A stretch of DNA of 56,988 bases from a virus, in the IMG/VR virus record IMGVR_UViG_3300009788_000017, positions 1 through 56,988 of that record. One strand, given 5' to 3'. Position 1 is the first letter of the stretch. The number at the start of each line of letters is the position of its first letter. The notes under the pieces were generated by a model, which was given only the letters and a program-made list of their open reading frames with translations, was not told the DNA's origin and did not search any database. Positions 4,462 to 56,988 of the stretch are shown here, one piece after another. Made by a program: the position numbers and the translations under genes.

Positions 4462-4472
4462 GGGATCGACCT

Positions 4473-4655
4473 ATGGCTAATAGACCTTTGACTAAACGCG
4501 TGTCGTTCAAGAAGCTGAACGGCCGGGCGATCGTAAACCAACTCGATGGCCGGGAGCGTGACTATCCGGCGTACAGGTTCGGCGGTCGCAACTTCTTTGA
4601 GCGCCCTGAAGTTCCGGGCCAGACGTACCGACGATACCAGGACATTGTGGAGTAA
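4473..4655 (+). CDS. Small basic hypothetical protein (60 aa)
   Basis: A 60-residue, Arg-rich protein (MANRPLTKRVSFKKLNGR...), 11 bases after terL and 2 bases before the next gene. No recognised family, no membrane segment. The aromatic, basic C-terminus (YRFGGRNFFERP, YRRYQDIVE) might bind nucleic acid, which is speculative. Confidence 0.6.
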   Translation: MANRPLTKRVSFKKLNGRAIVNQLDGRERDYPAYRFGGRNFFERPEVPGQTYRRYQDIVE

Positions 4656-4657
4656 TC

Positions 4658-5098
4658 ATGCTGCCTAGCTACGCACTATCACGTAAGCGACGCCTGAACC
4701 GCGAGAAGGCTGAAGCCAAAAAGGCTAGCAGTGAGAAGGCTGCGATCGAGCTCTCGATGGTGCAGACGCCGGAAGAGGCGATCGCCGCGGTCAAGGATAC
4801 CGAGATCGCAGGAATGATCGGCAACGAGATCGTCCGGCAGTACCCGGGCCACGGGTGGCAGGTTGTATCTGACATCCAGAATGGGATCGTCAAGATCTAC
4901 AACGCCCACATCTCAGGACAGATCGGTTGGATCTGGAAGATGGACGAGATGAACCCGGGCACGTTCGAGCGGGACGTTCGGCGGATTGGCGGTGAGATGC
5001 TGGAGCGCAGTGGCCTGAGCCGGACGGTGTTCAGTGAGGAAGCGATCATGGAGATTCAGCGAACTATTAACGGTGAAGCGAGGATAGACCTGTCGTGA
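4658..5098 (+). CDS. Hypothetical protein between terminase and portal (146 aa)
   Basis: A 146-residue protein with a strongly charged Lys/Glu/Ala N-terminal helix (residues ~8-35, probably coiled coil) followed by a mixed alpha/beta domain (WQVVSDIQNGIVKIYNAHIS). The stop overlaps the GTG start of the portal gene (GTGA). Its place suggests a head-assembly or packaging accessory role, but no family is recognised. Confidence 0.6.
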   Translation: MLPSYALSRKRRLNREKAEAKKASSEKAAIELSMVQTPEEAIAAVKDTEIAGMIGNEIVRQYPGHGWQVVSDIQNGIVKIYNAHISGQIGWIWKMDEMNPGTFERDVRRIGGEMLERSGLSRTVFSEEAIMEIQRTINGEARIDLS

Positions 5099-15896: not shown

Positions 15897-16079
15897 ATGA
15901 GTAAAGAAACAGCAGAAGCAACAGCAGAAGCAACAGCAGAAGCAACAGCAGAAGCAACAGCAGAAGCAACAGCAGAAGCAACAGCAGAAGCAACAGCAGA
16001 AGGTAACGTAAAATACTCTGACGCTACCCTTGAAGCACTAGAGCGATTGGGTCACCCTCACCCTGACTACCAAGGATAG
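15897..16079 (+). CDS. Small protein made largely of eight TAEA repeats (60 aa)
   Basis: A ~60-residue protein: MSKE, then eight TAEA/TAEG units (residues 5-36), then a 24-residue tail. I choose ATG 15897 over 15888 as closer to a normal spacing. The Thr-Ala-Glu-Ala repeat would form an acidic, very regular helix. The gene lies between the tailspike and the lysis cassette. No family recognised. The repeat number is likely to vary by slippage. Confidence 0.55.
   Translation: MSKETAEATAEATAEATAEATAEATAEATAEATAEGNVKYSDATLEALERLGHPHPDYQG
15909..16004 (+). repeat. 12-bp tandem repeat, eight units
   Basis: Eight in-frame copies of ACAGCAGAAGCA, seven of them identical and the last ending AAGGT. 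The near-perfect identity points to recent expansion by slippage or selection for copy number. Frame is kept because the unit is 12 bp. Confidence 0.95.
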
Positions 16080-19444: not shown

Positions 19445-20151
19445 TGGGACTCCTAAGCAAGATCGTCAAAGGTGCAAAGAATCTCTTCAAAGGTGCAGCG
19501 AAGGTATTCAAGCGAGCAGTCAAAGAGGTCAAGCGGTTCGTGACCTCGGACTTAGGCAAGGCACTCGTAGCATCAGCTGCCATTTTTTATGGGGGTCAGG
19601 CGCTTGGGGCGTGGGGCACGGGCACGACGGTTGCGGCTCCAGGTGCAATCCCAGGAGTCGGGGCAGGTACGGCAGCCGCAGCCCCTGCGACTACTGCGGT
19701 ACCATTCGAGCTAGGTGGTGAAGGGCTTGCCGCAGCTACACCGGCAGCACCATTCGAGCTAGGTGGTGAAGGGCTTGCCGCAGCTGCACCGGCAGCAACT
19801 CAAGCGGTTGCGGCTCAGGCACCAGGAGCGTTGGAGTCCATCCAAGGTGCAGCGACCGGGGTTATAGATAAAGTCAGCGCCGGAGCCAAGGCCTATGAGG
19901 CTTGGGCTAAGGCCAACCCGCTAACATCCAAGGTCGTAGGGAAGGCACTGGCGTCCTTAACCGCCACCCCTAAGACGAACGAAGCGCTTGAACTTGCGAA
20001 GTGGCAACGGGCCAACAGGAATGTAGCAGGCGTAGACGTCGGAGGCGCAGGGGCTGGATCATTGAGCTTGCCACAGCTCCAGCGAACTACACGCTACGTC
20101 GATCCGCAGCAGAGAGGCGGGCTAGTGTCACGCCTTAACAGGAGCACCTAA
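19444..20151 (+). CDS. Ala/Gly-rich putative ejection protein (235 aa)
   Basis: A 235-residue protein with a basic amphipathic N-terminal helix (residues 1-36, repeated K-x-K-x-F/V), a hydrophobic segment (residues ~38-60), then Ala/Gly/Thr-rich low complexity. Residues ~87-118 are a 16-residue unit repeated twice (PFELGGEGLAAATPAA and PFELGGEGLAAAAPAA). Composition suggests a membrane-interacting ejection protein; no family recognised. Confidence 0.55.
   Translation: MGLLSKIVKGAKNLFKGAAKVFKRAVKEVKRFVTSDLGKALVASAAIFYGGQALGAWGTGTTVAAPGAIPGVGAGTAAAAPATTAVPFELGGEGLAAATPAAPFELGGEGLAAAAPAATQAVAAQAPGALESIQGAATGVIDKVSAGAKAYEAWAKANPLTSKVVGKALASLTATPKTNEALELAKWQRANRNVAGVDVGGAGAGSLSLPQLQRTTRYVDPQQRGGLVSRLNRST
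19701..19796 (+). repeat. 48-bp in-frame tandem duplication
   Basis: Units 19701-19748 and 19749-19796 differ at one base (GCTACA versus GCTGCA). The duplication keeps frame and adds one 16-residue unit to the ejection-protein candidate, so it is likely recent. Confidence 0.9.
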
Positions 20152-27563: not shown

Positions 27564-28493
27564 TTACGACCCCTTATTCCAAGACTTGATGATGTCGGCC
27601 AGCTCAGCGTCACCCTCTACAACTGCACCGTCCGTGGCTGCTTCGGTCGGAGCCGCCGGTGCGCCAAGAGGCGGCGCAGTAGGAGCAGCAATAGCGGCGT
27701 CCACTGCGGCACTTAAAGCACTCGGAGCAGGGGCAGTCGGTGCAGTTGGAGCTACGGGAGCTACCTTCGCACCGCCACGGCGCTTCTTGAACACGCCTTT
27801 GCCGGTCACCGGAGGCACGTCAGAGGATGCCGACTTGGCGTGCTTGTCCTCGCTCCAGACTTCACCGGCAGAGTCGACCCAATCACCCTCATGTTGCCGT
27901 GGCCACTCAGTTGCAGCCGGTGCTGCAGGGGTCGATGGGACTTCAGGAGTAGCTGGCGCGGCCTTGGCCGGCATCTCCATGTAGCCATGCTCGACAAGCT
28001 GATCGTCGGTCCAGCCAGTATCCAAGAACTGCTGCCGTGTAGCCCCGGCGGCCTTGGCAGTCATGACAGGCTCGGGCTCTGCTACAGCTTCAGGAGTGGC
28101 CGGCGCCACAGGTGTTACCGGCGCCACAGGTGCCACAGGAGCGGCCGGTGCTTCAGGCTCAGGAGTGGGCGCAACGACAACCGGTTCGACCAGCTTGGCG
28201 TGGCCCTCGCTAACCATCTGATCGTGGCTCCAGCCTGCGTCCAGAAGCTGCTGGATGGTATAGCTGCCAGTGGCCTCGTACTCAGGCTCAGACGCTACGA
28301 CCGGCGCCGCGGTAACTACTTCAGCTTCAGCCATCTCGGCAGCGGTAACCGCACCGCCGAAGAACGCCTGCTCAGAATCCACGAACAAATCGATGGATGG
28401 CTCAGGGCCGTCGACTGCGACGACGAACATGTCGATCGCGACCTCACGGATCAGGTCTTGGGTCTTTGAATTTTTCACGTTGATTTTAATCAT
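27564..28493 (-). CDS. Ala/Pro-rich protein with two GW mini-repeats (309 aa)
   Basis: A 309-residue low-complexity protein rich in Ala, Pro, Val and Glu. Two ~20-residue mini-domains stand out: LLDAGWSHDQMVSEGHAKLV and FLDTGWTDDQLVEHGYMEM, each following an Ala/Pro linker; the same unit recurs twice in the next gene upstream. The C-terminus is basic (FKKRRGGAK) then acidic (AELADIIKSW). It may partner the probable ssDNA-associated protein encoded at 28578; that is inferred from the shared repeat. Confidence 0.55.
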   Translation of the reverse strand: MIKINVKNSKTQDLIREVAIDMFVVAVDGPEPSIDLFVDSEQAFFGGAVTAAEMAEAEVVTAAPVVASEPEYEATGSYTIQQLLDAGWSHDQMVSEGHAKLVEPVVVAPTPEPEAPAAPVAPVAPVTPVAPATPEAVAEPEPVMTAKAAGATRQQFLDTGWTDDQLVEHGYMEMPAKAAPATPEVPSTPAAPAATEWPRQHEGDWVDSAGEVWSEDKHAKSASSDVPPVTGKGVFKKRRGGAKVAPVAPTAPTAPAPSALSAAVDAAIAAPTAPPLGAPAAPTEAATDGAVVEGDAELADIIKSWNKGS

Positions 28494-28525: not shown

Positions 28526-28591
28526 CTATGCGCTTACGCAATGTAGGTTATGCGCTTACGCAATGTAGGTTACGCGCTTACGCAATGTAGC
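28526..28591 (-). repeat. Three 22-bp tandem repeats, each with a short palindrome
   Basis: Units start at 28526, 28548 and 28570. Each contains CGCTTACGCAATGTAGG (last unit ends GC), with TGCG-CTTA-CGCA as an imperfect dyad; the third unit has CGCG. The repeat overlaps the stop codon and last codons of the upstream gene (28578-29669) and lies before the start at 28493. It could be a regulatory or translation-delay element, or a slippage product. Confidence 0.85.
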
Positions 28592-29669
28592 CATGGATCT
28601 TTAGGGTCTCGTCGGTCCAGCCCTGCGCGATGAACTCATCGTACGCCACACCGTTGGCCTTGGCAGTCATCAGCGGCTTGGTGGGCTCGGGCGACGGGGC
28701 AGGTGGAGTGAGTGCTGCTTCAGGAGTTGGAGGCGGCGCGACTGCTGCGGTCTTAGGTGCAGGCACGGCTGGAGTCGGCTCGACCAGCTTGGCGTGCCCA
28801 GCTTCAACCATCTGCTCATGGCTCCAGCCCGCGTCCAGAAGCTCCTGGACCGAGTGAGTGCCTGTCGCCTCATATTTCGCAGGGGCAGCCAGTGCAGGGG
28901 CGCCGCCAGCAGGGAGCGCAGGAGTGGCAGAGGGGTCCGCTGCAACGCCACGGTTATTAGACGGCTTCATGGAGTTCAGCTCGTCGGATTTGCCCCGAGC
29001 GATCATACGGGCGGCAGCTTCAGCTTCCAGCCAGGACTCACCGCGGAACGCCAGCTGCGGGTGCTCGTCGCTGGTGAAGGTCATCTCGGTAATCAGTGCC
29101 TGCATCGGAGCGCCGTGCTTGATTAACTCCTGGCCGTAGGCACTCAACGCCTTGAGGCTGGTGGCTGGGACGCGCAGTACTGCGACATCACCATCCAACT
29201 GGTCGAACGGCACGACGAACAGGTTCTTATGGTCGCCACACAGTTTGCCCTTAGTGGGCTGACCCGCTGCGTCCTTGCCGGACCCAAACACGTTGTGAGG
29301 GCATTCAGTGCAGGACCGTGATACCGGCGCCGAGACGAAGCCATCCGGTGTGAGGCCATCGGACGAGAAGCAGTCAGGGGCGTCGACCGAACCAGGTGTG
29401 TACGCACCGACGTAGAACGACTTGGCGCAGCCCTTGGGCGGATCCATGCCGAGGATCACAGCCTTGAACGGCTGACCGGCGGGGAACGGCGTCTCTTCGC
29501 CATCCTTCACAAACCGGAACTGCTTGCCCTTGATGGAGATGGAGGGCAGCGACAGGAAGCTGGTCACCAGGCCTGCGGCTTCAGCGGCATCGACAGCGTA
29601 CTGCTGAAGGTGAGCTGGCAGTCCGGTCGAGCCCTGGCCCAGTACTGACGGTACGTTTGGAGTAGTCAT
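28578..29669 (-). CDS. Probable ssDNA-binding/replication protein with cysteine cluster and GW repeats (363 aa)
   Basis: A 363-residue protein in the replication operon. Residues ~40-130 are beta-rich (IKGKQFRFVKDGEETPFP...) and hold four cysteines (DCFSS, SCTEC, LCGDH) that suggest a zinc site. The C-terminal third is an Ala/Pro linker with LLDAGWSHEQMVEAGHAKLV and FIAQGWTDETLKIHGYIA, matching the mini-domains of the 27564 gene. ssDNA binding is inferred from the operon and general similarity to phage replication proteins of this layout; no OB-fold motif is proven by eye. Confidence 0.5.
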   Translation of the reverse strand: MTTPNVPSVLGQGSTGLPAHLQQYAVDAAEAAGLVTSFLSLPSISIKGKQFRFVKDGEETPFPAGQPFKAVILGMDPPKGCAKSFYVGAYTPGSVDAPDCFSSDGLTPDGFVSAPVSRSCTECPHNVFGSGKDAAGQPTKGKLCGDHKNLFVVPFDQLDGDVAVLRVPATSLKALSAYGQELIKHGAPMQALITEMTFTSDEHPQLAFRGESWLEAEAAARMIARGKSDELNSMKPSNNRGVAADPSATPALPAGGAPALAAPAKYEATGTHSVQELLDAGWSHEQMVEAGHAKLVEPTPAVPAPKTAAVAPPPTPEAALTPPAPSPEPTKPLMTAKANGVAYDEFIAQGWTDETLKIHGYIA

Positions 29670-34304: not shown

Positions 34305-34835
34305 TCAATACCCCTGTTGCAGTTCTTTATGGAGGCACTTAGCTAGCTCGCCTGCGATCCGCTCAACGCCGCCATGCCAAAGGGCTTCACGCGACCCACG
34401 CCACGCAGCACACTGGTTCGCCACGCCACGGTGCTGCAGCTGCACTTCAAAGTGAACCGCGTCGCGGAACTCGTTACTGTCTCGAAGCTCCGCCTCCAGC
34501 TCGTATAGCGGGATGCGTGTGAAGTCGATGGCTTTGGGAGGCTCGTTTGGAGCTGACACATCCAGCATGATCAGAGGCTCCGTACGCTTTGCGATCCAAT
34601 GGTCTTCATGGATCACAGTGGCTGCACTCAGAGCGATCGAATCAGGGTTGATAGAGCGCACCACCTCCACGACCCGCTTCGCTGATGTGATCGACTGTGC
34701 GAAGTCCTGCTCAAGCTGGTCTGCTCGGGCAGCCTCTCGCGCCAGGCTGGCGTAGCAGTTCCAGTAGTTGGCCTTCACTGCTGCAAGTTCAGCCTGCATC
34801 GCCCGCTTCTGATTCCTTCCGAATCGTTTGCTCAT
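34305..34835 (-). CDS. Hypothetical protein (176 aa)
   Basis: A 176-residue protein with a basic N-terminus (MSKRFGRNQKRAMQAEL) and a long helix to residue ~65, then an alpha/beta C-terminal part. The start at 34835 has a strong leader (GGAGAAGGGAA). It overlaps the next gene upstream (ATGA). No family recognised. Confidence 0.6.
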   Translation of the reverse strand: MSKRFGRNQKRAMQAELAAVKANYWNCYASLAREAARADQLEQDFAQSITSAKRVVEVVRSINPDSIALSAATVIHEDHWIAKRTEPLIMLDVSAPNEPPKAIDFTRIPLYELEAELRDSNEFRDAVHFEVQLQHRGVANQCAAWRGSREALWHGGVERIAGELAKCLHKELQQGY

Positions 34836-35140
34836 TTCCCTTCTCCCCAGATCCATGAATAGATGACAAACCATGCTGGGCGGCGCGTCATCCTTAATTT
34901 ATTGAGCTCAAACCGCAGGCTGTGGAGCTCATCCTCCTTAGGTCCGATCACTATGACCGGAGTCTGATCCGCCTTGGCAGCCTCGAGCTCCTGCAGCAGC
35001 TTGGCGTAGTTGACCTTATGGGACTCTAGCGTAGCCTGCAACTTCGTCCCTGCGCGCCCACTTTGCAAGAGTCGCAGCTCAGCAGCTTGGTTCTTCGCAC
35101 GCTCCAGTAGCTGAGCGTATGTCAGTGATTCGAGCTGCAT
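34832..35140 (-). CDS. Hypothetical coiled-coil protein (102 aa)
   Basis: A 102-residue protein, mostly a heptad-like helix (residues ~5-60 and ~70-85), ending WFVIYSWIWGEGK. Coupled to genes on both sides by overlapping codons (ATGA and TGATG). No family recognised. Confidence 0.6.
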   Translation of the reverse strand: MQLESLTYAQLLERAKNQAAELRLLQSGRAGTKLQATLESHKVNYAKLLQELEAAKADQTPVIVIGPKEDELHSLRFELNKLRMTRRPAWFVIYSWIWGEGK

Positions 35141-35349
35141 CAGAAAGGCTCCTCTTCATCTAGCGGCTCTAGCCGGTCAGGGTCGTCAGGGTTTACGACC
35201 TCGGCAACCTCATCCAGGCTAAGGATGCCCTTGCTGTGGAGCAGTTCGGTAAGACGTCCGGTGACTTCTCCAGTGGCTCGCTTGCCGACGTACTCAGAGA
35301 GTGTCGTCTCCTCGACATCGCAGCGGCCAGTCCATGCTCGAATATCCAT
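35140..35349 (-). CDS. Small acidic hypothetical protein (69 aa)
   Basis: A 69-residue acidic protein (MDIRAWTGRCDVEETTLSEY...), ending DRLEPLDEEEPF. The start at ATG 35349 follows GCGAGGATGAT; the upstream alternative is a TTG. It begins two bases after the duplicated nuclease tail frame. No family recognised. Confidence 0.55.
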   Translation of the reverse strand: MDIRAWTGRCDVEETTLSEYVGKRATGEVTGRLTELLHSKGILSLDEVAEVVNPDDPDRLEPLDEEEPF

Positions 35350-35350
35350 A

Positions 35351-35461
35351 TCATCCTCGCTTCGCTTCAAAGACCCGGCGCTTTTCTTTCAGCTCGGGCG
35401 TCATTTGTGAGCACTGCCCCACTTCAGCCGGACAGAACATGCACTTGTAGGTTGGCTTCAT
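35351..35461 (-). pseudogene. Duplicated 3' end of the Cas4-like nuclease gene (36 aa)
   Basis: This frame encodes the last 35 residues of the neighbouring Cas4-like nuclease with 32 identical, including the three C-terminal cysteines (KCMFCPAEVGQC). The DNA is only about three-quarters identical to the in-gene copy, so it diverged some time ago or came from a relative. It starts with ATG overlapping the HNH stop (ATGA) and lies exactly on the other side of the HNH gene from the intact copy. Most simply, a leftover of an HNH-driven recombination; a free-standing Fe-S peptide is possible. Confidence 0.75.
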
Positions 35462-35976
35462 ATCACTCTCTTTCCGTGGTTAGGATGGAACTCTAGGTCT
35501 ACTTCTGCGGACTTCCTAGAGTTTGCGGCAGCTTCAAACTCGTCGAAGTACCCAAGAAATTTAACCTTGCCGTATGTCTTTATCTCGGCCTTCCACTTGC
35601 TTCGCGACTTCACCCAGTACACACCTACACACCCTGACGTATTGGCAGAAGTGAGCATGTAGTTGCGATGGTTCTGAGAGCAGCTGACATCACGTAAGTT
35701 AGCTATGTGATTATCGTCGCGATCTCCGTTGATGTGATCTATCTGTGCTGCAGGCTCAGCGCCTGTATGGTATATCCATATAAGTCGGTGCGCTTTATAC
35801 TGTCGCCTGCCAATACTTATATGCCGGTAGCCGTCCTGCAGTACACTACCAGCTTCACAGCCTCTTAGCTGTGGACGGCGAAGCGGCGGTGACTTCCAAA
35901 TCAACTTACCATCTACATACTCAAACAGCTCATGTAGGTCGTCTTTCGAAAGTGTAATGTGTCTCGACGCAACCAT
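35458..35976 (-). mobile_element. HNH homing endonuclease with AP2 domain (172 aa)
   Basis: A 172-residue free-standing homing endonuclease. The HNH core is AQIDHINGDRDDNHIANLRD (residues ~77-96), followed by an SCSQNHRNY zinc/bba segment and a C-terminal AP2 DNA-binding domain (SGCVGVYWVKSRSKWKAEIK; LGYFD). It begins 2 bases after the nuclease stop and is followed by a second copy of that gene's 3' end, so it most likely sits in or next to its own homing site. Confidence 0.88.
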
Positions 35977-35978
35977 TG

Positions 35979-36695
35979 CTAGCCCCTCTTGTTCTCGAAC
36001 TTACGCCGTTTCTCTTTAAGTTCAGGCGTCATTTGCGAGCACTGGCCAATCTCAGCCGGGCAGAACATACACTTATAGGTTGGCTTCTCAGGCCAGTTGC
36101 CAGACTCGTTGGCTAGCTGGATCAGCTCAGATCGGTCACCGAATTCCTGCCAGATAGCTTCCAGCTGATCCCGTGTGTACTCTACATATACCATCGGAGC
36201 TGTAGGATGGTCAACAAATACGTACGCGGTCGTTACTTTCTGAGCCTTGGGGTGCATGTCGAACACACCGGCCGTGAACATCCGCAGCTGGTCCGTGGAG
36301 TCCGTACGCACCTTGCCGGTCTTCCAGTCAATCATGACGATGTGCTCTTCACCACTGGCGCAGATCAAATCGAAGATCATCCGGCACCATGCCTGCTTGT
36401 CGAACCATGAGCACATCTTGCGCCGGGCGTTGAAGCAGACCTGGAGCTCGGCCTTGATCATGCTGCTGGCGCGGATCTTCTCGATCACCGGCGCGATCCA
36501 CTGGCGGCTGGGATGAAGAGGTGTGCCCTTGCCGATCGCATCCTCCAGCTCCTTGTGGACGTCCTTACCGCGCTGCAGGTGAGGCGAGTTGAAGTTCTCC
36601 TTCGGGAAGTCCTTCAGGATGTACTTGCCCTGGAACATCCGAGGGCACTGCTCAAAATCATTAAGTCGTGAGAACGACCAGGCTATGCGTGACAT
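35979..36695 (-). CDS. Cas4/AddB-like Fe-S nuclease, PD-(D/E)XK (238 aa)
   Basis: A 238-residue single-stranded DNA nuclease of the RecB/Cas4 family, presumably processing ends in recombination. Visible: SRLNDFEQCPR with Cys17, VHKEL with His47, RMIFDL (Asp109), MIDWKTGK (Asp123, Lys125), DQLRMF, and a C-terminal KCMFCPAEIGQC (Cys209, Cys212, Cys219). Cys17 plus the three C-terminal cysteines form the iron-sulfur ligand set of Cas4 and AddB. There is no Cas1/Cas2 or array nearby, so it is a stand-alone phage recombination nuclease. Driven by a promoter at 36722-36750. Confidence 0.88.
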   Translation of the reverse strand: MSRIAWSFSRLNDFEQCPRMFQGKYILKDFPKENFNSPHLQRGKDVHKELEDAIGKGTPLHPSRQWIAPVIEKIRASSMIKAELQVCFNARRKMCSWFDKQAWCRMIFDLICASGEEHIVMIDWKTGKVRTDSTDQLRMFTAGVFDMHPKAQKVTTAYVFVDHPTAPMVYVEYTRDQLEAIWQEFGDRSELIQLANESGNWPEKPTYKCMFCPAEIGQCSQMTPELKEKRRKFENKRG

Positions 36696-36721
36696 TGTGT
36701 ATCGTCTTTGAACTTACTAAG

Positions 36722-36750
36722 ACTATAAAATTACTTTCTACGTTCGTCAA
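36722..36750 (-). promoter_or_regulatory. Sigma-70-like promoter for the Cas4-like nuclease
   Basis: On the minus strand TTGACG (36745-36750), a 17-bp spacer and TATAGT (36722-36727), 27 bases before the ATG at 36695. It lies in the 58-base gap between polymerase and nuclease and would add transcription to the distal half of the operon. Confidence 0.65.
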
Positions 36751-36753
36751 GTA

Positions 36754-38652
36754 TTAAAGTTCTTTTAGTTGAGGCCAGTTAGCTCCGACCGATGCATCCC
36801 ACTTCAACGGCACCTCAAGATCCACACCCCATGCAGCCTTGTAGTCCATGGCGTTGAGCATGGCTCGAGCCTCCAAGATCTTCGACTCAGGGTAGTCCTC
36901 GGGTACGAGGTAGTGCAGGCCATCGTGGAGCGAGAACCAGAACAGCTGCTCCGGGAAGTGCTCACTCATCTGCTGGAGTCCAAGATCTGACATGTCAGCA
37001 CCGGACCCCTGGATCGGGAACATCAGCGCCGATGACTCGGACGACCATCGCATATCTGGGGACCAGTCATCGATAGCGAACCGGCGGCCGCCCAACGTCT
37101 CAGCGTACCCGACTGCTTTGGCAGTGGCGATGGCGTTGGACCAGTAGATCTTGATCCCGGGGAACATACGCTTGAATGTATCCTGCCAGTCTTTGGTCTT
37201 CAGGAAGTCCACGTTAAGTCCGTACTGCACGCGGGCTTGTATCCTCATTTTCCGTACGCCTACTCTGAAATTTTGGCTCAGGTTGATAAATTTCGCTGCA
37301 TACCTATAGCCATGTTCGCCGACGATGGCTATGTTGCCTGCCTCCTTGCCTTTCATAAATGCTTCGTAGCTCATGCCACTGATGGCGGCGCCGGTGAACG
37401 AGTGGAAGTCCATGTTCTTGGTGAATACGTTGCGCATCGCGATGTCACCTGACTTCTCCGCCATTAGCCGAGACTCCTGGCCGGCTGCGTCATACTCGAC
37501 GTGCTTATATCCGGCCGGCGGCTTGAGTAGCGCACGGAGCTGCTTGTTCCGAGGCCATTGGTGCAGCGCCACGCCGGTCTGGTATTTCTTTTTGGTCTTG
37601 GAGCTGTACGTTTTTCGACCAGTGTAGGTGCCGAACATCTTAGGCGATGGGTGCATGGTGTCACTGCCAAGATAGGTGCGTGCTTTCTTAGGGGCTTCAA
37701 TGTACTTCGACAGCTGAGTGTTGAGCTCGCGCCACCGTAGGATCTCCAACGCCCGGTCGTCATCGTCAGCCAGGTATGTCAGCGCAGCCTTGTCGGTGCT
37801 CGGCTCGCCGGTCTTGTCCGAGAAGTTCTTGGCGATCAGCTTCCACTTACCATAGAGCAGGGCGCCTAGTTGCTTTGGAGACCGGAGGATCTTACTGGGT
37901 GTCCAGAACGCGGTGTCCTCCATGACGCGTTTGGCTGCGGGCCCGGCATAGTTGCTGACGCCGAGCGAGAACTCGATATCGCGCATCTCAGTTACGATCG
38001 CAGGGCGGATGGAGTCAAGCAGCGAGAAGTCGATCGGCACGCCCATGAGCCAGCTCCGGGCCACCTCTGGGATCGACGAGCACTCGATCATGGCGGAGCT
38101 GATCTGCCGGTCTGTGAGTAGTGGGATGACCTGCTCTACGATCTTAGCGGTGATGATCGCATCCAGCTTGGCACGGGTCTCCCAGTACAACGCGCTACCA
38201 CCAGGCGTGTGCTCCTCCTTTTTCATCTGGAGGAACGCCTCAAGCCAAGGCTCGTCAGCGCAGAACTTCTTGGCGCCGTCAGCCAGTGACCACTTCGGGA
38301 TGCGCTCCTTGCGCTGGGAGTTGGCGTACCACTTCCAGAGCAGCATGGCGTCGACCCACTTGATGGCCTTAACTTCCTGCCAGTGTCCGGAGGCGATCAG
38401 CCAGGCCACGTCGAAGATGCCGTTCCAGGTGGTGACATACTCACCCTCGAGTCCTTGGAGCAGGCCACGCCAGTCTGACTGCTCCAGCAAGGAGCGGCCG
38501 TCAGCCTTGGCGATAGAGATGCAGTCGATCTGAGCCTTGCCCTCGGTGCCCCGCCACGGCTGCAGGGCGTACTCGCTGGGCTGATCGACCGCGGGCCCGG
38601 TCTCGATGTCGAGCGCGGTGGCGCCGAGGAGTTGGGTTCGTAGGTCAGTCAT
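36754..38652 (-). CDS. Family A DNA polymerase with 3'-5' exonuclease domain (632 aa)
   Basis: The 632-residue replicative polymerase. Exonuclease motifs: ALDIETGP (residues ~12-20), WNGIFDVAWL, and a later Tyr/Asp pair. Polymerase motif A is EYDAAGQESR with Asp388 and Glu393, T7-like in having Gly where E. coli has Gln708. Motif B reads R450-x3-K454 then FINLSQNFRVG: Leu458 lies where E. coli Pol I has Phe762, and the usual Y-G is F-R. Motif C is LHDG (Asp577, Gly578), lacking the usual Glu. No 5' nuclease domain. Confidence 0.92.
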   Translation of the reverse strand: MTDLRTQLLGATALDIETGPAVDQPSEYALQPWRGTEGKAQIDCISIAKADGRSLLEQSDWRGLLQGLEGEYVTTWNGIFDVAWLIASGHWQEVKAIKWVDAMLLWKWYANSQRKERIPKWSLADGAKKFCADEPWLEAFLQMKKEEHTPGGSALYWETRAKLDAIITAKIVEQVIPLLTDRQISSAMIECSSIPEVARSWLMGVPIDFSLLDSIRPAIVTEMRDIEFSLGVSNYAGPAAKRVMEDTAFWTPSKILRSPKQLGALLYGKWKLIAKNFSDKTGEPSTDKAALTYLADDDDRALEILRWRELNTQLSKYIEAPKKARTYLGSDTMHPSPKMFGTYTGRKTYSSKTKKKYQTGVALHQWPRNKQLRALLKPPAGYKHVEYDAAGQESRLMAEKSGDIAMRNVFTKNMDFHSFTGAAISGMSYEAFMKGKEAGNIAIVGEHGYRYAAKFINLSQNFRVGVRKMRIQARVQYGLNVDFLKTKDWQDTFKRMFPGIKIYWSNAIATAKAVGYAETLGGRRFAIDDWSPDMRWSSESSALMFPIQGSGADMSDLGLQQMSEHFPEQLFWFSLHDGLHYLVPEDYPESKILEARAMLNAMDYKAAWGVDLEVPLKWDASVGANWPQLKEL

Positions 38653-56865: not shown

Positions 56866-56988
56866 AAAAATCGCGATTTTTCGAGCGCCTATTTAGCTGT
56901 TTTGTATACAATGTGCTGCGGGTTCGGTGTGCATATTCTTGTCTTTTGGTGTGCAGCGCCGACACAATCGGTATGGTGTGCATCTTAA
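56866..56988. repeat. Right copy of the 123-bp direct terminal repeat
   Basis: Identical to 1-123, starting with the palindrome AAAAATCGCGATTTTT at 56866-56881. The base before it (C, 56865) ends the identity, so the repeat is exactly 123 bp within this window. Confidence 0.95.

Follow-up and report, generated by a model that had tools for sequence, protein, structure and literature searches.

How does the end of a phage exonuclease gene come to be present twice, once on either side of a gene for an HNH endonuclease? The question is raised by a locus on the minus strand of a viral genome of 56,988 nucleotides (IMG/VR record IMGVR_UViG_3300009788_000017; the whole of this stretch is referred to here as the window). 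In this locus the exonuclease gene is followed, after 2 nt, by the HNH gene, then by a short open reading frame (ORF) that repeats the exonuclease end and, after 1 nt, by the next gene:

36695-35979, minus strand: PD-(D/E)XK (Cas4/RecB-like) exonuclease, the host gene of the insertion, 238 amino acids, stop TAG (PF12705, phrog_69, invariant cysteines)
35979-36086, minus strand: tail A, the in-frame end of the exonuclease, last 35 codons plus stop (pairwise match to tail B)
35976-35458, minus strand: HNH endonuclease gene, 172 amino acids, predicted free-standing homing endonuclease, stop TGA (PF13392, phrog_99, I-HmuI profile match)
35461-35351, minus strand: tail B, a 36-codon ORF (MKPTYKCMFC...AKRG*), stop TGA (repeat of the last 35 residues of the exonuclease)
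35140-35349, minus strand: gene downstream of tail B (junction GAGGATGATATGG)

The first-pass annotation of this DNA had placed the HNH gene exactly between the two tails, and so it proved: the exonuclease TAG and the HNH ATG (35976) are 2 nt apart on one side, and on the other the HNH stop and the start of tail B share an ATGA overlap. The ATG of the next gene, at 35349, lies one base past the tail B stop, and an AGGA motif is found within tail B ahead of that gene. Similarly, AAGAGGGG in tail A, immediately upstream of the HNH start, is a possible ribosome-binding site for the HNH gene. The gene at 35140-35349 is probably the ancestral downstream neighbour of the exonuclease. (Note that a homologue of this gene was sought among relatives to fix the ancestral synteny, and none was found there.) The neighbours of the exonuclease are genes for DNA polymerase A and a primase-helicase.

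Consistent with the diverged second copy that had been noticed across the HNH gene, tail A and tail B are identical at 32 of 35 residues and at 80 of 108 bases, and a tblastx E-value of ~1e-22 for the match argues that this similarity is not due to chance. Elsewhere in the genome the exonuclease matches tail B alone (E=9.7e-18). The duplication begins abruptly at AAGCCAACCTA and extends to both stops, the duplicated part being the complete exonuclease end from codon ~204 through the stop. Identity at codon positions 1, 2 and 3 is 32, 33 and 15 of 36, respectively, pN is 0.08, and synonymous sites are saturated; saturation of this kind, together with conservation of the protein, indicates that the tails most likely diverged as the ends of working nucleases. 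Selective over-recoding of a tail was ruled out, since 17 of the 30 conserved degenerate codons differ between the tails where independent coding would be expected to yield 15.2, which is no excess. Base composition was uninformative as a marker of a foreign tail (GC3 of 0.67 in tail A and 0.64 in tail B).

The host gene matches PF12705 (E=1.2e-14) and the exonuclease family phrog_69, and has a weak PDB match to a solved Cas4 structure (8d3l). Four cysteines (C17, C209, C212 and C219) are invariant across seven relatives of the exonuclease, and three of the four lie within the tail. With a PDDEXK core and four conserved cysteines, the features shared by Cas4, the other PDDEXK-Fe-S nucleases and phrog_69, the protein is consistent with a Cas4-type Fe-S nuclease, in line with the first-pass annotation of a Cas4-like nuclease with three Fe-S cysteines in its tail; it differs from Cas4 in being a phage replication-module exonuclease whose sequence match to Cas4 is distant.

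A search for close relatives of the phage found none, whether by distant blastn or with tight patterns for the nuclease and polymerase proteins; a degenerate pattern for the tail DNA returned three matches, all unrelated. More distant relatives of the locus proved informative. In Acinetobacter phage HHU4 the 3′ end of the orthologous exonuclease gene contains the ATG of a related HNH gene, and the same site is without an HNH gene in phages MD-2021a and Effie, so that HHU4 differs from these sisters by a presence/absence polymorphism. HHU4 and MD-2021a are ~96% identical overall, yet their exonuclease genes differ at 15 of 62 positions in the tail as against 35 of 652 in the body (p=5e-6), the sharp divergence of HHU4 from its HNH-less sisters being confined to the last ~60 nt. 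MD-2021a and Effie, which are ~90% alike elsewhere, differ at only 4 of 62 positions in the exonuclease tail. From this divergence of the tail alone, seen while the two HNH-less tails agree, the HHU4 exonuclease tail most likely arrived together with the HNH gene of that phage; HHU4 retains no displaced tail. Among 80 IMG/VR viral relatives of the exonuclease, one (L015) has an HNH gene of the window's family near the exonuclease gene, located just upstream of its start (4462-4974); both ends of the exonuclease gene may thus be targeted by HNH genes.

The complete arrangement, with a divergent in-frame tail, the HNH gene and a displaced tail, recurs at the gene for the Rz spanin in a Pantoea conspicua prophage (L335) and in Cronobacter phage ES2 (L402). 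In Pantoea the Rz gene ends in ARQNYFRLREQLATSEKQIRGLQDYIRKVVFDEKGESNQ, and the sequence past the HNH gene is VNSAQRDYFTLRERIETAGKQIAGLQQYIREQCLK. It is the displaced copy that matches unoccupied alleles: 30 of 31 HNH-less Rz alleles are nearer to it than to the in-frame tail. The other HNH-occupied allele, that of ES2, has a tail of the in-frame type, identical to that of Pantoea at 30 of 38 positions, and has its own displaced Rz tail directly after the HNH gene. (In the ES2 record, JF314845.1, this displaced tail, at 1766-1867 of L402, is unannotated and the HNH gene is annotated as hypothetical.) The HNH proteins of Pantoea and ES2 are 83% identical and the Rz bodies are identical at 60 of 125 positions; the Pantoea Rz body is nearer to that of an HNH-less allele (L370). 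Because in-frame tails and HNH proteins are alike despite divergent Rz bodies, the Rz in-frame tail and the HNH gene appear to travel together, the displaced copy being apparently the recipient's own.

By analogy with HHU4 and the Rz loci, we favour intronless homing with replacement of the end of the target gene, tail A having arrived together with the HNH gene and tail B being native, and we put the probability of this reading at roughly 0.8. The HNH enzyme is predicted to cut exonuclease genes that lack the HNH insertion, at a site close to codon 204 within the conserved Fe-S tail, and repair would then copy in a cassette comprising the re-coded last 35 codons, a stop, the possible ribosome-binding site and the HNH gene. 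Mere interruption of the 3′ end by an HNH gene would disable the exonuclease, so the re-coded tail would repair the frame, restoring the nuclease ORF as a hybrid; it would also probably no longer match the cut site, and would thereby confer immunity. The HNH gene would be translated from the 3′ end of tail A, and the recipient's own tail would persist as a downstream remnant that keeps its junction with the next gene. Each tail may therefore serve the gene after it, tail A through AAGAGGGG for the HNH gene and tail B through its AGGA and one-base junction for the next gene. Some remnants, tail B among them, may be kept as translational relays of this sort; the ATGA overlap could be without significance, or could help ribosomes pass on to the next gene. 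For the window phage we infer the cutting, the position of the cut site, the immunity of the re-coded tail and the direction of transfer. Thus homing that brings in a foreign or rebuilt tail, as suggested in the first-pass annotation, finds support in the locally divergent tail of HHU4 and in the native-type displaced copies of the two Rz loci. That annotation had put the insertion next to the gene; in the favoured reading it falls within the gene, at its 3′ end.

The roles of the two tails could instead be exchanged, tail A being native and the HNH gene having landed just past the exonuclease stop, bringing tail B with it from the exonuclease of another phage. Tail A continues the exonuclease body without a break and in its reading frame, and its composition is compatible with a native origin. 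We nevertheless consider this arrangement unlikely, since in the Rz loci the displaced copy belongs to the common, native type and the HNH gene travels with the in-frame tail, and in HHU4 the anomalous tail is the in-frame one.

Still less probable is a local duplication of the 3′ end within the phage, with the HNH gene dropped between the copies before they diverged and tail B kept as a small, translated, Cys-rich peptide. The ATG of tail B does overlap the HNH stop, and its frame has stayed open. Synonymous saturation with 32 of 35 residues kept would, however, require long selection on a 36-amino-acid fragment that lacks the nuclease core. Moreover, no relative was found with two tails and no HNH gene, the case that had been named in advance as speaking against homing; a second tail copy is present in 0 of the 80 viral exonuclease relatives. 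The displaced Rz and portal remnants (the latter described below) have no coupled in-frame ATG. Translation of the extra copy, raised as a possibility in the first-pass annotation, is therefore not supported as a general rule, although a NinG remnant, like tail B, has a coupled in-frame ATG.

The HNH protein has an HNH_3 domain at residues 60-104 and an AP2-like domain at 116-151, and thus the catalytic and DNA-binding parts of a free-standing HNH homing endonuclease. It matches PF13392 (E=1.2e-14) and phrog_99 (E=1e-61), the AP2 match being weak and below the cut-off, and its nearest solved relative is I-HmuI (1u3e; profile match, E=5.5e-9). GC3 of the HNH gene is 0.51, against ~0.70 in other genes. 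Homing endonucleases of ICP1 have been grouped with I-HmuI in the HNH_3 + AP2 family (PMC10448857). The window protein shares with that family the catalytic domain and an AP2-like DNA-binding C-terminus, whereas I-HmuI is intron-encoded and the window HNH gene, which has its own start and stop codons and no match to an intron family, lies outside any intron or intein. Enzymes of the I-HmuI family are often intron-borne, and an exonuclease message spliced to tail B, with tail A and the HNH gene removed in the manner of an intron or intein, could be imagined. We regard this as highly improbable, given that the exonuclease ORF is already complete with tail A, that the HNH gene abuts both tails and leaves no space for intron RNA, and that Rfam searches detected no intron, either in 34800-37000 at E<=1 (a chance lncRNA match aside) or across the whole window at gathering thresholds.

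An assembly artefact joining two related phage genomes, a concern raised by the uncultivated source of the record, can be dismissed as scarcely credible, since the joints are sharp and biologically meaningful, the same architecture occurs in the isolated phage ES2 and in bacterial genomes, and identical 123-bp ends suggest one complete molecule. (These ends are at 1-123 and 56866-56988; judged by them, the record is probably a complete genome, circularly closed or terminally redundant.)

Gene-end duplications of this kind were surveyed by scanning non-redundant HNH loci of the same family, from viral and bacterial contigs and with the window itself excluded, for coding duplications across the HNH gene at E<=1e-4. 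They were found at 6 of ~295 HNH loci, compared with 3 of 867 control ORFs in the same loci (p=0.011), and at 0 of 703 mispaired flanks taken as a control at the survey cut-off. The duplicated ends are as follows.

L335 and L402: Rz spanin, tail type (named from phage annotation of homologues)
L233: portal protein, tail type (Pfam)
L214: NinG, tail type (Pfam)
L195: integrase, head type (Pfam)
L192: DUF968 nuclease, head type (Pfam)
L293/L309: predicted tail-fibre-like gene, head type (no Pfam match)

Three of the six are thus duplications of a gene head and not of a gene tail. Inspection of the three control matches showed no displaced gene tail: at L172 two integrase heads are paired, at L195 the copies are tRNA-like and on the other strand, and at L290 the match is to an antisense frame. 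Weak duplication matches at L174, L236 and L124 were set aside, being put down to chance or low complexity. The excess over control ORFs is modest, and the cases are few. For the portal gene a single distant relative was found, and for the integrase of L195 there are relatives of up to 73% identity, which gave no clear assignment of the head copies. At L192 (2441-3037) an in-frame fusion joins the HNH protein to a duplicate of the initial 20 residues of the DUF968 gene that follows it, so that the start of the host gene may also serve the HNH gene. At L172 (454-1693) an unrelated ORF lies between two integrase starts, one of them truncated, an arrangement that resembles a gene-head duplication without an HNH gene.

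The chances seem to us evenly balanced that HNH homing genes of phages in general travel as cassettes with a re-coded host-gene end, whether tail or head, in this way entering conserved regions of essential genes with no need of an intron, leaving footprint ends and transferring gene ends between distant phages. Intronless homing endonucleases of phages, such as SegF, MobE and SegB of T4 and F-CphI of a cyanophage, are known to sit between genes or to split a gene. Like the window locus, these have no intron, lie beside their presumed targets and have acquired foreign flanking DNA; what appears to set the window locus apart from them is the displaced end with its re-coded replacement. No phage or HNH case of such a displaced end was found in the literature, of which subscription journals were thinly covered.

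A closer parallel is provided by mobile ORFs of fungal mitochondria, in which LAGLIDADG or GIY-YIG genes carry a foreign host-gene C-terminus and hybrid transcripts have been demonstrated (Glomus atp6, atp9, cox2 and nad3; PMC3630166, where an Allomyces atp6 mobile ORF is cited as a further fungal case, Paquin 1994). The order of parts is the same, with the host-gene body followed by an inserted divergent C-terminus, the endonuclease ORF and the displaced native C-terminus, and divergence is likewise high at synonymous sites and low in amino acids. In the window, too, an endonuclease gene has a divergent in-frame C-terminus on one side and another copy of that C-terminus on the other, but the enzyme is of the HNH_3 type and not LAGLIDADG or GIY-YIG, which makes the mechanism analogous and the element family different. 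The phage and prophage cases also differ from the fungal ones in using HNH_3/AP2 enzymes, in residing in double-stranded DNA phages and prophages, in having smaller, tightly packed loci with overlapping start and stop codons, and in including gene-head versions. These comparisons would extend to phages a mechanism known in fungal mitochondria, and suggest a way for homing genes without introns to enter conserved, essential coding sequence while sparing the host gene, namely by carrying a re-spelled gene end. Duplicated gene ends offer a searchable footprint, the hybrid genes can mislead phylogenies, and the tight start/stop overlaps of some phage HNH genes may find an explanation here; HHU4 with MD-2021a, and ES2 with HNH-less Rz phages, are clean pairs of occupied and empty sites.

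Other repeats were observed in the window. Short tandem repeats with near-identical copies lie at 15904-16002 and 19701-19797. The adjacent ORFs 27564-28493 and 28578-29669, both partial matches to phrog_7011 (Gp2.5-like ssDNA-binding), have in common a motif of ~25 residues, LLDAGWSH.QMV..GHAKLVEP, whose DNA is repeated at 28182-28255 and 28776-28849.
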